From positions 1 through 64,000 of the forward strand of contig NZ_CABDUX010000002.1 of NCBI RefSeq assembly GCF_901411515.1: DNA of 64,000 nt. The letters are read 5' to 3'. Source of the DNA: Raoultibacter phocaeensis. GTDB lineage: Bacteria > Actinomycetota > Coriobacteriia > Coriobacteriales > Eggerthellaceae. Shown here in pieces: positions 14,549 through 22,195 of the stretch. The first letter of the stretch is position 1. The number at the start of each line of letters is the position of its first letter. The notes under the pieces are model-generated. The model worked only from the letters and a program-made list of their open reading frames with translations, ran no database searches and was not told the origin of the DNA. The position numbers and the translations under genes are program-made.

Positions 14549-17284
14549 ATGGCTGAACATGCAGCAGACGGGCAAGGGGCACATCTTACGGGCGACACGT
14601 CCGAGGGGGCTGTCTCTCGGGTTTCCTCCGAGGTCGAAAGCGGTTTCGCTGCGGATGCGGCGGATGGACCCGCTGCTGACCCTACCTGTATTGCGGATAC
14701 GGTGGCTGGATCCGATGCAAGCCCTTCTTTCGCCGCGGGTTCGCTCGGGCGGCTTGCGCCCTCATGGTGGGAGCCTGAGGACGGAGAGGCGCAGCCCGAG
14801 CCGTGGCTTTCCCCCGACGAAGCGCTCGACCGGTTTCTCGACTGGACGGTAGGGCGGGGTATCGAGCTGTGGCCCCATCAGGAAGAGGCGCTCATGGCGC
14901 TTATGGTGGGCGACCATGTGATTTTGGGAACGCCCACAGGTTCGGGCAAGTCGCTCGTGGCGCTCGGGATGAGCTTCATGGCGCTTGCCTCGGGGCGCCG
15001 CGCGTACTACACGGCACCCATCAAGGCGCTCGTAAGCGAGAAATTCTTCGATCTCGTGGAGGTGTTCGGGCGCGAGAACGTGGGCATGATCACGGGCGAT
15101 ACGCACATCAACACCAGCGCTCCCATCATCTGCTGCACGGCAGAGATTTTGGCGAACCTCGCATTGCGCGAAGGCGAGGAAGCCGACGTGGGCTGCGTGG
15201 CGATGGACGAGTTCCATTTCTACGGAGACGCCGATCGCGGGTGGGCATGGCAGGTGCCGCTGCTCACGCTGCCGAAGACGCAGTTTCTGCTCATGAGCGC
15301 CACGCTCGGCGATGTGAGCGCTTTGGCGGAATCGCTTACCGCCCAAACGGGGACCGATGTGGATGTGATCGCCGATGCGCCGCGGCCTGTGCCGCTTGCC
15401 TACGAATACGTTGAGATGCCGCTTGAGGGTACGGTGGAGCTTGCGCTGCGTAAGGGCGAGGCACCGCTGTACCTCGTGCACTTCTCGCAAGATGCTGCAC
15501 TTGCGACTGCGCAATCGCTTTCCAGCTTCGGCGTCGCCACGAAAGAACAGCGCGCGGTCATCAAAGAGGCCGTTTCCGGCACTCGTTTCACCACGGCGTT
15601 CGGACAGGTGCTCAAGCGGCTTTTGGCAAGTGGCGTTGGCGTGCATCATGCAGGAATGCTTCCGCGCTACAGGCTGCTCGTCGAAAAGCTCGCCCAGCAG
15701 GGGCTTTTGCCGGTGATCTGCGGGACCGACACGCTCGGCGTAGGCATCAACGTGCCCATCCACACGGTGGTGCTGACGGCGCTTGCCAAGTTCGACGGTC
15801 ACCGCATGCGCAGGCTGCGAGCCCGCGAGTTCCATCAGATCGTCGGGCGGGCAGGACGGTCGGGATTCGACACCGAGGGCATGGTGATTGCCGAGGCTCC
15901 CGAGCACGAGATCGAAAACGCCCGCCTGGTTTTAAAGGCGGGAGGCGATCCGAAGAAGATCCGCAAGATCAAGAAGAAGCAAGCGCCCGAAGGCTTCGTC
16001 ACCTGGAACAAGCAGACGTTCGACCGCCTCATCGAAGCGGTGCCCGAAACGCTCAAACCGCGCATGCGCATCACGCACTCGATGGTGCTTTCCGAAGTGG
16101 TGCAGGGAGGCGATGCCTACGGCCGCGTACGCAAGCTCATCGACGATTCTGCGCAGACCGACGAAGAGAAGGCAGCGCTTGTCGTGCGAGCCGACGAGAT
16201 ATTCGAAACGCTGATAAACGCAGGTGTGGTTGAACGGGTTTCGGGCGAGGATGGTGCGGTCGAATACGTGACCACCGTGGATTTGCCGGAGGACTTCGCG
16301 CTCGACCAGCCGCTCTCTCCGTTTCTGCTTGCGGCGCTCGAGCTGTTGGATCCCGAGGACGAGACCTATGCGCTCGATGTCATATCGCTTGCCGAGGCGA
16401 CGCTTGAGAACCCGCGCCAGGTGCTGCGCGCCCAAGAGCGGCATGCCCGAGATAAAGCCATGGCCGAGATGAAGGCCGAGGGCATCGAGTACGAGGAGCG
16501 TTTGGAGAAGATCGCCGATGTCACGTATCCGAAACCGCTTGAGGATCTGCTGGAGGCCGCGTTCGATCGGTACTGTCAGGAAGTTCCGTGGGCGCGCGAC
16601 TTCGAACTGGCTCCCAAATCGGTGCTGCGCGATATGATCGAGACCGCATCCGACTTCAAGGGTTACGTGGGCCGATACGGCATCGCCCGTTCGGAGGGCA
16701 CGCTTTTGCGCTACCTGACCGATGCCTACCGCGTGCTCGACCGCACCGTGCCAGCCGAACGGCGCGACGTGCGGCTCGACGATATCGTGGCATGGCTCGG
16801 CTTCGTGGTGCGTTCGGTCGATTCGAGTTTGGTGGACGAGTGGGAGAGCGCCGGGTCAATGCTGGATGCGGCTCCCCCCGCGCCCTCGGACGAGGTGGTG
16901 CACGACCGCAGGGGGCTTACCGTACTCGTGCGCAACGCGCTCTTTTTGCGAGTGCGGCTTGCATCGCAGGGCCGTTCCGGCGAACTGGGCAAACTCGATC
17001 AGGGTTGGGGCTGCGGCGAGCCGCGCTGGCAACGGGCGCTCGATGCGTTTTTCGAGGTGCATGAGGATATTCTCATCGATGCGGATGCGCGCTCGATGGC
17101 GTACCTTTCGATCGACGAGGGCGATGAGAAGGGCGAGCATGTGTGGCATGTGCACCAGATATTTAGCGATTCGGACGGCGACCGCGATTTCGGCATAGCC
17201 GCCGATGTGGATTTGGATGCGACCCAAGAAGGCAGCGAGGCCGTATTCAAAAACTACAGGGTTGGGTTCTTCGAAGAGCTGTAG
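14549..17284 (+). CDS. Ski2-like DEAD/DEAH helicase with DUF3516-type C-terminus
   Basis: ATP-dependent RNA (or DNA) helicase of superfamily 2, 911 residues. After a low-complexity N-terminus of about 75 residues come the Walker A motif GTPTGSGKS near 127, motif II MDEFHFYGDADRGWAWQ near 220, motif III MSATLG near 250, and motifs V/VI in TDTLGVGINVPIHTVV and FHQIVGRAGRSGFDTEG. The long C-terminal region fits DUF3516, typical of actinobacterial Ski2-like helicases. The low-complexity start may be over-called; the conserved part starts near PSWWEPEDGE. It lies between the YejK-like gene and an ABC exporter. RNA turnover is the likely process, by family. Confidence 0.88.
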   Translation: MAEHAADGQGAHLTGDTSEGAVSRVSSEVESGFAADAADGPAADPTCIADTVAGSDASPSFAAGSLGRLAPSWWEPEDGEAQPEPWLSPDEALDRFLDWTVGRGIELWPHQEEALMALMVGDHVILGTPTGSGKSLVALGMSFMALASGRRAYYTAPIKALVSEKFFDLVEVFGRENVGMITGDTHINTSAPIICCTAEILANLALREGEEADVGCVAMDEFHFYGDADRGWAWQVPLLTLPKTQFLLMSATLGDVSALAESLTAQTGTDVDVIADAPRPVPLAYEYVEMPLEGTVELALRKGEAPLYLVHFSQDAALATAQSLSSFGVATKEQRAVIKEAVSGTRFTTAFGQVLKRLLASGVGVHHAGMLPRYRLLVEKLAQQGLLPVICGTDTLGVGINVPIHTVVLTALAKFDGHRMRRLRAREFHQIVGRAGRSGFDTEGMVIAEAPEHEIENARLVLKAGGDPKKIRKIKKKQAPEGFVTWNKQTFDRLIEAVPETLKPRMRITHSMVLSEVVQGGDAYGRVRKLIDDSAQTDEEKAALVVRADEIFETLINAGVVERVSGEDGAVEYVTTVDLPEDFALDQPLSPFLLAALELLDPEDETYALDVISLAEATLENPRQVLRAQERHARDKAMAEMKAEGIEYEERLEKIADVTYPKPLEDLLEAAFDRYCQEVPWARDFELAPKSVLRDMIETASDFKGYVGRYGIARSEGTLLRYLTDAYRVLDRTVPAERRDVRLDDIVAWLGFVVRSVDSSLVDEWESAGSMLDAAPPAPSDEVVHDRRGLTVLVRNALFLRVRLASQGRSGELGKLDQGWGCGEPRWQRALDAFFEVHEDILIDADARSMAYLSIDEGDEKGEHVWHVHQIFSDSDGDRDFGIAADVDLDATQEGSEAVFKNYRVGFFEEL

Positions 17285-19309: not shown

Positions 19310-19405
19310 GTTCAATAAGTTCATTTTTCTGCCGTTGAGTTCAATTTTTGGAGAAATTCCTGCTTGCATGACGTATACTCAGTGAACGATTTCACGAAAT
19401 TGAAC
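19310..19405 (+). promoter_or_regulatory. Putative operator array and promoter for the XRE-aminotransferase gene
   Basis: GTTCAAT occurs at 19310-19316 and 19339-19345, a partial copy GTTCAT at 19319-19324, and the inverse ATTGAAC at 19399-19405. TATACT at 19374-19379 is a good -10. The half-sites flank this -10, as expected for repression by an XRE protein; the gene just downstream encodes such a domain. Confidence 0.5.
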
Positions 19406-19423
19406 CTTAGGAGTGCTGATCGC

Positions 19424-20944
19424 ATGCGGGAGCAAACGTTTGCCGAACGTCTCAACGAAACCATGACGGCACGAAGCCTCAAGCAGGCCGATCTTATCCG
19501 CATTGCGGGCGAGCGTGGTACAAAGCTCGGAAAAAGCCAGGTCAGCCAATATGCTAACGGAAAAACCGTGCCGCGAAGCGATGTGCTGCGCATCTTGTCC
19601 GATATCCTCGAGGTGAGGGCCGAGTGGCTTATCGATGGAACGGAGCCTGTTTCCGAAGAGCGCGAAATTGAACCGCCACTGCACCGTGAAAAAGAAGGAC
19701 ATGCCGAAAACCGGGAAAAGGATGGCGCTATGGGAGCGATCAGGAAGTCAACCAAGCTCGACAACGTGCTCTACGACGTGCGGGGTCCGGTTGTGGAGGA
19801 GGCCGAGCGCATGGAGCAAGCCGGGGCCACCATCCTCAAGCTCAACATCGGCAATCCTGCTCCGTTCGATTTTCGCGCACCCGACGAAATGATATACGAC
19901 ATGGGTCGCCAGCTTGCGGATTGCGAAGGCTACTCGTCGGCGAAAGGGTTGTTCTCGGCCCGCAAGGCCATCATGCAGTATGCGCAGCTCAAGCATATCG
20001 AGGGCGTGACTATCGAAGACGTGTATACGGGCAACGGCGTAAGCGAGCTCATCAACCTGAGCCTGCTTGCCCTGCTCGACAACGGCGACGAAGTGCTCGT
20101 TCCCTCGCCCGATTATCCTCTGTGGACCGCGTGCGTGACGCTTGCGGGAGGTACGCCCGTTCACTACGTGAGCGATGAGCAGGCGGAATGGTACCCCGAC
20201 ATGGATGATATCCGCAAGAAGATCACGAGCCGCACGAAAGCGCTCGTCGTCATCAACCCGAACAATCCTACCGGTTCGCTTTACCCCCCTGCGGTGCTGC
20301 AGGAGCTTATCGACATCGCGCGCGAGCACGACCTCATCATCTTCTCAGATGAAATATACGATCGGGTTGTCATGGACGGGCTCGAGCATGTGTCCATCGC
20401 CTCGATGGCACCCGATTTGTTCTGCGTGACGTTCAGCGGACTCTCCAAATCGCACATGGTCGCGGGCTACCGTATCGGATGGATGATCCTTTCGGGGAAC
20501 AAGGCGAAGGCGCACGACTACATCTTGGGGATCAACATGCTCTGCAACATGCGCATGTGCTCCAACGTACCCGCGCAGTCAATCGTGCAGACGGCGCTTG
20601 GCGGCCATCAAAGCGTGCAGGGTTACGTGGTGCCGGGGGGACGCGTGTACGAGCAGCGTGAATTCGTGTACAAGGCGCTCAACGACATTCCCGGCGTGAC
20701 GGCTGTGAAACCGAAGGCGGGCTTCTACATCTTCCCCAAACTCGATGTGAAGAAGTTCAACATCACCGACGACGAGCAGTTCGCCCTCGATCTGCTCCAT
20801 GAGAAGAAGATTCTCGTCGTGCACGGGGGCGGGTTCAACTGGAAAAAGCCCGACCACTTCCGCGTGGTGTTCTTGCCACGAATCGAAGTGCTCGGCGAAG
20901 CCATGGAATCGCTTGCGGATTTTCTGGCGCATTACCGGCAGTAA
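19424..20944 (+). CDS. XRE-type DNA-binding domain fused to alanine aminotransferase (AlaA-like)
   Basis: 506 residues in two parts. Residues about 5-70 form an XRE/Cro helix-turn-helix (FAERLNETMTARSLKQADL, KSQVSQYANGKTVPRSDVL). From residue 103 the sequence is a fold-type I PLP aminotransferase close to AlaA: KSTKLDNVLYDVRGPV, LKLNIGNPAPF, NPNNPTG, and SGLSKSHMVAGYRIGW with the PLP lysine. AlaA makes alanine from pyruvate and glutamate. The ATG at 19424 follows TAGGAG. An internal ATG at 19730, in frame and preceded by GGGAAAAGGA, would give a normal stand-alone AlaA, so two products are possible. The DNA-binding part suggests that the enzyme controls its own gene; this is inference. Confidence 0.85.
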   Translation: MREQTFAERLNETMTARSLKQADLIRIAGERGTKLGKSQVSQYANGKTVPRSDVLRILSDILEVRAEWLIDGTEPVSEEREIEPPLHREKEGHAENREKDGAMGAIRKSTKLDNVLYDVRGPVVEEAERMEQAGATILKLNIGNPAPFDFRAPDEMIYDMGRQLADCEGYSSAKGLFSARKAIMQYAQLKHIEGVTIEDVYTGNGVSELINLSLLALLDNGDEVLVPSPDYPLWTACVTLAGGTPVHYVSDEQAEWYPDMDDIRKKITSRTKALVVINPNNPTGSLYPPAVLQELIDIAREHDLIIFSDEIYDRVVMDGLEHVSIASMAPDLFCVTFSGLSKSHMVAGYRIGWMILSGNKAKAHDYILGINMLCNMRMCSNVPAQSIVQTALGGHQSVQGYVVPGGRVYEQREFVYKALNDIPGVTAVKPKAGFYIFPKLDVKKFNITDDEQFALDLLHEKKILVVHGGGFNWKKPDHFRVVFLPRIEVLGEAMESLADFLAHYRQ

Positions 20945-21099: not shown

Positions 21100-21462
21100 C
21101 TAGCGTGCGCCTTCACGTGTGGGATTGACGGCGTTGCGCTCACCCCAGGCACACATGGCCTCCATCAGGGGGTAGAGCGAGCGGCCTTTTTCTGACAGGC
21201 TGTATTCCACCTTCGGGGGAATCTGCGGGTATTCGGTGCGCACGATAAGCCCGTCCGCTTCCATGTCTTTCAGCTGCGAGCTGAGCGTCTTATCGGTGAT
21301 ACGGCCGATTTTGCGTTTGAGCTCGTTGAATCGCACGGTTTCGCACTCCACGAGCCAATACAGGATGACCATCCGCCATTTGCCTCCGATCATCGAGAGC
21401 GTGTAGCCGAACGGCGTGTCGGTAAGGGAGGAAAGGTTCCCCTCAAAAGGCTCCATGCTCAT
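21100..21462 (-). CDS. HxlR-family transcriptional regulator
   Basis: 120 residues with the HxlR/MarR-like winged helix fold: TLSMIGGKWRMVILYWL, VRFNELKRKIGRITDKTLSSQLKDM, and IPPKVEYSLSEKGRSLYPLM. Start at 21462 follows AAAGGAAG. These small dimeric regulators often control an adjacent divergent gene in response to aldehydes, thiol stress or redox-active compounds. Its divergent neighbour is the TIGR04076-like gene at 21616, and AGTAC (21484-21488) with GTACT (21504-21508) between them is a candidate operator. Confidence 0.9.
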   Translation of the reverse strand: MSMEPFEGNLSSLTDTPFGYTLSMIGGKWRMVILYWLVECETVRFNELKRKIGRITDKTLSSQLKDMEADGLIVRTEYPQIPPKVEYSLSEKGRSLYPLMEAMCAWGERNAVNPTREGAR

Positions 21463-21615
21463 CGCTTTGCTTCCTTTCAGAAAAGTACCCATCAAAAAAG
21501 ACAGTACTATACCGTTGCTTCGATGTGCAGTATACCTGAGTTCGAGCGTGTTGTCTGCGTGATCGAACTGCGTGCAGCGCCACGCCTGAAAGCAAGCGAC
21601 CGATGAGGAGCAGAT

Positions 21616-21954
21616 ATGAGCATGAACCAGGTGAGAATTACCGTGTTGAAGACAACGTTCGATGAAAAGCTGGCGCAGGAATACGGAGTCGAGGGTTTGA
21701 AGGCCTGTCCTTTTCTCAAAGAAGGGCAGGTGTTCTACGCCGATTACGCCAAACCCGAGGGTTTTTGCGACGAGGCGTGGAAGGCGGTCTACCAGTATGT
21801 GTTCGCGCTTGCGCACGGTGGCGCCAAAAGCAGCGCGTTTTATTTCGATGACTGGATGAAGGAACCCGGGATAGCTATAGCGAGCTGCAACGACGGTCTG
21901 CGTCCGGTCATCCTGAAGATCGAGGCGACCGACATGCCCGCCAAGCTCGGGTAG
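21616..21954 (+). CDS. TIGR04076-family small protein
   Basis: 112 residues, cytoplasmic. The layout VRITVLKTTFDEKLAQEY, then ACPFLKEGQVF and a late CNDGLRPVILKIEA fits the TIGR04076 family, which is widespread in anaerobes and has a conserved cysteine pair. Function is not known to me; the metal- or thiol-binding look is inference. Start follows GAGGAG. It is divergent from the HxlR gene, which probably regulates it. Confidence 0.75.
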   Translation: MSMNQVRITVLKTTFDEKLAQEYGVEGLKACPFLKEGQVFYADYAKPEGFCDEAWKAVYQYVFALAHGGAKSSAFYFDDWMKEPGIAIASCNDGLRPVILKIEATDMPAKLG

Positions 21955-22195
21955 GATCCAGCGAACGTCGCAGGTGCGGTCTGCGGTCGGCGGCGGCAAG
22001 ATTAGCGGCACACGCTTTGGCGGGCGATGTCGGCATAGTGCGGGTGCCGTTTCCTCATCCATTGTCGACTTGTTTCGGATTCGGCGGCGTTAAGGCCCGA
22101 GCCAGTGGGTGCTGGGGTATCATAGTCGAAGACACATAGCACGGCATTGCGCTGCGCCAACGGGGGCGTACGCCTACGGATTCGAAAGGTTGAGC

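Follow-up and report, generated by a model that had tools for sequence, protein, structure and literature searches.

Does an aminotransferase that carries a repressor-type DNA-binding domain control its own gene? The question is raised by positions 19310–20944 of a 64,000-nucleotide stretch of Raoultibacter phocaeensis DNA (contig NZ_CABDUX010000002.1, positions 1 to 64,000; called the window here), where a single frame of 506 amino acids plus stop encodes an XRE domain, a linker and a complete alanine aminotransferase, AlaA (stop codon at 20942–20944, from the reading of the window's open reading frames). The start codon of this long form is likely the ATG at 19424, which is preceded by AGGAG at 19409–19413. 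The features of the locus are as follows.

19310–19316, plus strand: distal half-site GTTCAAT, exact word, the top 7-mer upstream of 89 fusions
19318–19324, plus strand: near half-site AGTTCAT, agreeing with the TP901-1 AGTTCAY; found by eye, outside the statistics
19339–19345, plus strand: half-site GTTCAAT, exact word
19374–19379, plus strand: candidate -10 element TATACT, by eye only
19382–19387, minus strand: near half-site GTTCAC (GTGAAC on the plus strand); by eye, outside the statistics
19399–19405, minus strand: half-site GTTCAAT, exact word, directly 5' of the Shine-Dalgarno sequence
19409–19413, plus strand: Shine-Dalgarno sequence AGGAG of the long form, read from the sequence
19424–20944, plus strand: long form, XRE-AlaA fusion, 506 amino acids plus stop (frame and domain searches)
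19439–19636, plus strand: phage-CI-type XRE/HTH domain, residues 6–71 (profile, structure model, Foldseek)
19649–19729, plus strand: disordered linker, residues 76–102, pLDDT below 50 (full-length structure model)
19667–19673, minus strand: linker half-site, exact word, within a 12-bp exact copy (CGAAATTGAACC) of 19395–19406 (repeat search)
19718–19722, plus strand: internal Shine-Dalgarno sequence AAGGA, 7 nt before ATG 19730, as read; conserved across loci
19730–20944, plus strand: predicted short form, AlaA from Met103, 404 amino acids plus stop (alignment with Met1 of 4cvq; conserved start)

Architecture and spread of the fusion

The DNA-binding domain scores 25.0 against HTH_3 when searched in isolation (cut-off 23) versus 20.4 in the context of the whole protein, and HTH_3 was found in all 20 fusion proteins checked; a Pfam search of the fusion protein gave no GntR match, the domain being of the HTH_3/CI type. 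Residues 6–71, predicted alone, were modelled as a five-helix HTH with a mean pLDDT of 86.5, and the full-length predicted structure has a mean pLDDT of 74.8, with values below 50 at residues 76–102. From residue 103 onward the protein is AlaA, which aligns without gaps to the E. coli enzyme (4cvq, 554 bits) with Met1 of the latter on residue 103; the aminotransferase-like C-terminal domain matches PF00155 at 166.6 bits, and the AlaA part matches NCBIfam NF006230 at 370 bits, under that family's cut-off of 534. (A Pfam ADK match fell under its cut-off and was discarded.) The frame, the HTH_3 match and the 4cvq alignment thus bear out the initial annotation, which had proposed that one uninterrupted frame joins a DNA-binding domain to an AlaA-like enzyme.

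The PLP lysine, the substrate arginine and the plug residues are all present (Y15, R18, G41, Y68, N179, D207, Y210, K240, R248 and R378, where D207 is a position that we take to belong to the active site), and the protein equals E. coli AlaA at the active-site positions except for V in place of I17 and M in place of I276. These residues are kept in 82–89 of 89 fusion loci at fixed register, the remainder being shifted, cut or different rows, and judged by them the AlaA part looks catalytically intact. The positions other than D207 are those given for E. coli AlaA in a part of PMC4094517, where the enzyme is described as a dimer whose N-terminal arm shapes the active site and the dimer interface and closes over the active site.

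The best domain-wide PDB sequence match of the HTH is the N-terminal domain of TP901-1 CI (profile search, 9e-17), and TP901-1 CI structures (5a7l, 8qao, 3zhi and 3zhm, which include a complex with an operator half-site) take Foldseek ranks 1–4. Matches to BurrH in the PDB searches were set aside as sums of many weak repeat matches. Relatives of the HTH are encoded in 79 phage records, several of them annotated as repressor. The domain had been called Cro-like; its XRE nature stands, and its type is refined here to that of TP901-1 CI.

An XRE version of such a protein had been thought unusual, MocR regulators using a GntR domain; the domain is indeed XRE and not GntR, but the survey that had been suggested found the fusion to be widespread. 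With the HTH profile (A1), 144 of 296 Coriobacteriia genomes match at E <= 1e-6, and subtraction of two weak matches on 166-aa frames (G100 and G245) leaves 142. AlaA is found in 153 of the 296 (E <= 1e-120), and comparison of the two lists by eye gives 142 fused and 11 unfused enzymes. A phylum-wide draw gave 16 matching genomes of 296, 14 with Coriobacteriia fusions and two weak. Thirty of 81 Bifidobacteriaceae genomes match the HTH profile, as do 10 of 148 genomes of the family to which the genome of locus L087 belongs, four of these with fusion-length frames, and the best 80 of 421 related contig stretches come from Coriobacteriia, Lachnospiraceae and other Bacillota, and one Bifidobacterium. 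One Candidatus Eisenbergiella genome (G587) has two fusion copies, L065 and L137. Six HTH relatives (L239–L244, two of which, L240 and L241, the motif failed to parse) lie on frames of 168–251 aa, under fusion length, and are possibly prophage repressors.

Half-sites at fused and unfused alaA genes

The exact word GTTCAAT occurs in the window on the plus strand at 19310 and 19339 and on the minus strand at 19399 and 19667, which are four of its six copies in 64 kb; the total is no higher than chance (6 versus 6.8 expected), and it is the clustering that is notable. A scan of the upstream region with the sigma-70 consensus returned no promoter. The strict inverted pair of half-sites is absent from the source genome and present in 12 of 20 genomes.

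The comparison with other fusions rests on 140 loci, 130 of them with the HTH motif, of which 89 were kept after near-copies and loci with less than 150 bp upstream were dropped. Two loci are outside all fusion counts (L022, which has an in-frame stop, and L023, whose divergent HTH the motif missed), L205 (G111) was unused since N covers part of its HTH region, and the start assigned to L120 is probably too late. Within 150 bp upstream of the 89 non-redundant fusions there are 364 copies of GTTCAA/TTGAAC, versus 14.0 on average and never more than 25 across 500 first-order Markov resamplings; all 89 have at least one half-site in this interval and 87 have at least two. The final 100 bp hold 31.5 half-sites per kb, the flanks 0.38–0.39 per kb, and in an unsupervised ranking of all 7-mers upstream of the 89, ATTGAAC/GTTCAAT comes first and AGTTCAA fourth. 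Fusions collected after the motif had been fixed carry 3–7 half-sites in 24 of 24 cases, 22 of them new (L229 and L235 repeat L121 and L087); the same search found no half-sites at four HTH-only relatives. The initial annotation had placed GTTCAAT/ATTGAAC half-sites around the promoter and had named their absence upstream of orthologous fusions as grounds for giving up the idea; they are there in the window, at all 89 orthologous loci and at the 22 further ones.

The half-sites vary greatly among the 89 loci in number, orientation and spacing. In 66 of 89 the half-site closest to the start reads TTGAAC; the median distance from the closest half-site to the start is 24 nt, and neighbouring pairs are direct in 149 cases and inverted in 126. 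In 42 of the 49 loci where a TATAAT-like element was found (89 scanned), half-sites flank it. Spacings between neighbours cluster near 11–12, 19–21, 31–33 and 41–43 bp (R of 0.40–0.42 at periods of 10.5–11 bp, n=255, from loci that are not fully independent), and phasing at about one helical turn would suit a protein that sits on one face of the DNA.

The half-site word itself may connect the sites with the HTH. The consensus half-site of TP901-1-type CI proteins is given in part of PMC8516035 as AGTTCAYR, a change of the central C there going with low affinity in phage 13. The core AGTTCA, as a sequence match only, is common to this consensus and to the conserved upstream word; that the closest solved relative of the HTH reads AGTTCAYR suggests that HTH and word belong together. 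The left operator OL of TP901-1 is reported, in the part of PMC4941734 used here, as AGTTCATGAAACGTGAACT; half-site spacing in the fusions is wider and more variable, which would suit HTH domains on long flexible linkers.

The alaA genes without an HTH serve as natural controls. Eight unfused loci were read (L021 and L198–L204) from the 11 genomes, G070, G078 and G083 being left out, and none of the eight has a half-site cluster. Within 400 nt of the anchor at seven of them, exact half-sites number one at L021 (-146), one at L199 (in codons), one at L202 (-343) and none at the rest; at L204 no half-site lies in the 200 nt examined. A tree of 93 rows (L074, too short, was left out) contains at least four switches between fused and unfused, each of them required by branches with good support. 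Fused clades enclose L021 and L202, while the four-member group L198–L201 is placed less surely, and L203 and L204 stand at the drawn root. We read this as an HTH absent ancestrally, followed by what would be two or three losses, the operators apparently vanishing each time.

Half-sites are also found inside the fusion genes. In the window the operator element next to the promoter recurs as the exact 12-bp copy at 19663–19674, in the linker, and 18 of the 89 loci have linker half-sites, 25 in all, versus 3.2 under codon permutation (0 of 500 permutations as high). These may act as an internal operator or a roadblock, and we note them as a lead only.

The strict 7-mer inverted pair occurs at 16 places in the 20 genomes, 10 of them at alaA, and among the six others no convincing second target was found; as six of 16 lie elsewhere, there may be further targets. 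Of the six, one in G011 precedes a transporter-like ORF by about 300 bp and one in G040 stands directly before a nucleotidyltransferase-like ORF (both ORFs named by reading); two are long perfect inverted repeats and two were judged coding by eye. Searches for a wider regulon with paired half-sites in six genomes gave scattered matches, in several genomes at or below the reversed control, and together with the six places they make no convincing regulon. The long repeats (L209, 1001–1037, and L211, 1001–1032) have GTTCAAT in their arms and lie off alaA, in two genomes of one genus.

The internal start

The in-frame ATG at 19730, with a ribosome-binding site of its own, had been said to fit the exact start of a normal AlaA, and this fit holds: AAGGA precedes it, Met1 of 4cvq aligns with it, and it is conserved above chance. 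The codon aligned with AlaA Met1 is ATG or GTG in 77 of 89 loci (the other 12 are without), and a Shine-Dalgarno sequence of at least four letters precedes it in 74 of these 77, of at least five in 59 and of at least six in 44; at the other ATGs of the AlaA part (n=1161) the frequencies are 23.6% for at least four letters and 0.3% for at least six. Permutation of linker codons, a test which picked the best start within 15 codons and not, as in the 77-locus count, the aligned codon, gave a mean of 14.1 loci with a Shine-Dalgarno sequence versus 73 of 76 observed. This sequence is spread over the three frame classes (33, 32 and 18) through different residues, so it is kept at the level of the RNA. 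In the unfused alaA genes the most evident start and Shine-Dalgarno sequence are the homologue of the fusions' internal start. Together these observations suggest that a shorter AlaA without the HTH is often also made.

Two forms are not to be expected in every lineage. Among 20 Bifidobacteriaceae fusions, 13 have Met at the Met1 position and seven have Arg or Lys, so that these seven are without the internal start; a Shine-Dalgarno sequence is found in 12 of the 13 and in none of the seven. These seven loci (L215, L217, L218, L219, L231, L233 and L234) have lost both the internal Met and the Shine-Dalgarno sequence and have kept 4–6 upstream half-sites.

Proposed autoregulation, its rivals and known systems

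From architecture, operators, internal start and active-site residues, all taken from the sequence, we infer how binding, repression, mixed dimers and an effector would fit together. AlaA dimers would carry two HTH domains on flexible linkers, and these would bind several AGTTCAAT half-sites, phased at about one helical turn, that lie around the promoter and ribosome-binding site of the gene which encodes them, thereby repressing its transcription. Negative autoregulation is the best reading of sites that surround a promoter and leader and seem to serve one gene only, when the product of that gene itself carries an HTH. In most lineages the internal ribosome-binding site at AlaA Met1 would give plain AlaA as well, and repression would be weaker with mixed dimers of long and short forms, which have a single HTH. 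Active-site occupancy (PLP/PMP, alanine, 2-oxoglutarate), relayed by the N-terminal arm, would be the likely signal. The HTH hangs on the arm that closes over the active site; a ligand-driven change of the arm would be the simplest sensing route. The account as a whole, a catalytically intact AlaA with a CI-type HTH that represses its own gene through the half-sites and has a short form from the internal start, we hold to be probable. A bolder version, in which a fully active transaminase is a "missing link" between enzyme and regulator, its arm reading its own active site, mixed dimers tuning repression and the linker half-sites serving as a second operator, is put forward tentatively and is more doubtful than not in our judgement.

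The half-sites might instead belong to another conserved regulator, the HTH having a different target or being a mere appendage. Six of 16 strict pairs lying away from alaA would fit this, but sites accompany the HTH at 89 of 89 loci, clusters are missing at all eight HTH-less loci read and the nearest characterised relative of the HTH recognises AGTTCAYR, which makes the idea very unlikely. Activation of the gene by its own product, or activation together with repression as with lambda CI, is unlikely: sites do lie on both sides of the TATAAT-like element in 42 of 49 loci, but the nearest, beside the Shine-Dalgarno sequence, is in a repressing position.

We give almost no credence to an element that works in the mRNA as a hairpin or leader. 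The proximal TTGAAC abuts the Shine-Dalgarno sequence and inverted repeats exist, but direct neighbour pairs outnumber inverted ones, the half-sites are spaced in phase with the DNA helix, the Rfam search returned nothing above chance level and clusters are absent at the eight HTH-less loci read. The internal Met and Shine-Dalgarno sequence, finally, could be relics of a standalone ancestor, with the long form alone being made, as their homology to the standalone start and their loss in some bifidobacteria would allow; against this, the surrounding linker differs between loci yet the Shine-Dalgarno sequence is kept in all three frames, and in the 20 Bifidobacteriaceae it goes with the Met. This we consider quite unlikely, and we retain autoregulation by the long form, tuned by a short one, as the preferred reading.

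In automatic annotation by NCBI the architecture is called "bifunctional HTH-domain containing protein/aminotransferase" (PRK13355); we know of no work on the function, operators or second start of PRK13355 proteins, and no study of an XRE-AlaA fusion was found in the open-access literature, subscription journals being mostly uncovered. The kind, an enzyme with a DNA-binding domain, is known; the combination of an active-looking AlaA, a CI-type HTH, an operator cluster and a second start is unreported in the literature searched. NadR, PutA and BirA are single polypeptides that are both enzyme and repressor of the genes of their pathway, but they are of other enzyme families with other DNA-binding folds, and to our knowledge none has a conserved internal start of this kind. 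The DNA-binding domain of BzdR is also of XRE type. As described in part of PMC3602430, BzdR resembles the fusion in that a metabolic enzyme fold, shikimate-kinase-like, recruited a DNA-binding domain, but loss of enzyme activity was essential to its evolution and it controls another pathway, whereas the active site of the fusion looks intact. MocR/GabR regulators share with the fusion the order of N-terminal DNA-binding domain, linker and fold-type I PLP domain (described in part of PMC5320631); unlike them, the fusion has a CI-type XRE domain in place of GntR, keeps the AlaA active-site residues checked, has its own gene as the only convincing target found and has a conserved internal start.

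TP901-1 CI is like the fusion in the sequence and fold of its HTH and in the half-site core AGTTCA, but CI forms dimers by means of a helical region and multimers at phage operators, whereas the fusion would dimerise through AlaA and its site spacing differs. E. coli AlaA (4cvq) matches the whole enzyme without gaps, including the active-site residues and the N-terminal arm, and is itself without a DNA-binding domain. That regulators arose from enzymes by recruitment of DNA-binding domains is a widely held view to which there are few experimental approaches, according to part of PMC3602430. The fusion family provides hundreds of natural copies with an intact-looking enzyme, domain-less relatives as controls and a ready-made second form. 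It predicts control of alanine/glutamate pools in gut Coriobacteriia, bifidobacteria and Lachnospiraceae, and offers a concrete operator sequence.

Other genes in the window include an HxlR-type regulator at 21100–22062 (minus strand), with an adjoining small ORF at 21616–21954 (plus strand) that has no Pfam match, and a DEAD-box helicase with DUF3516 at 14549–17284.
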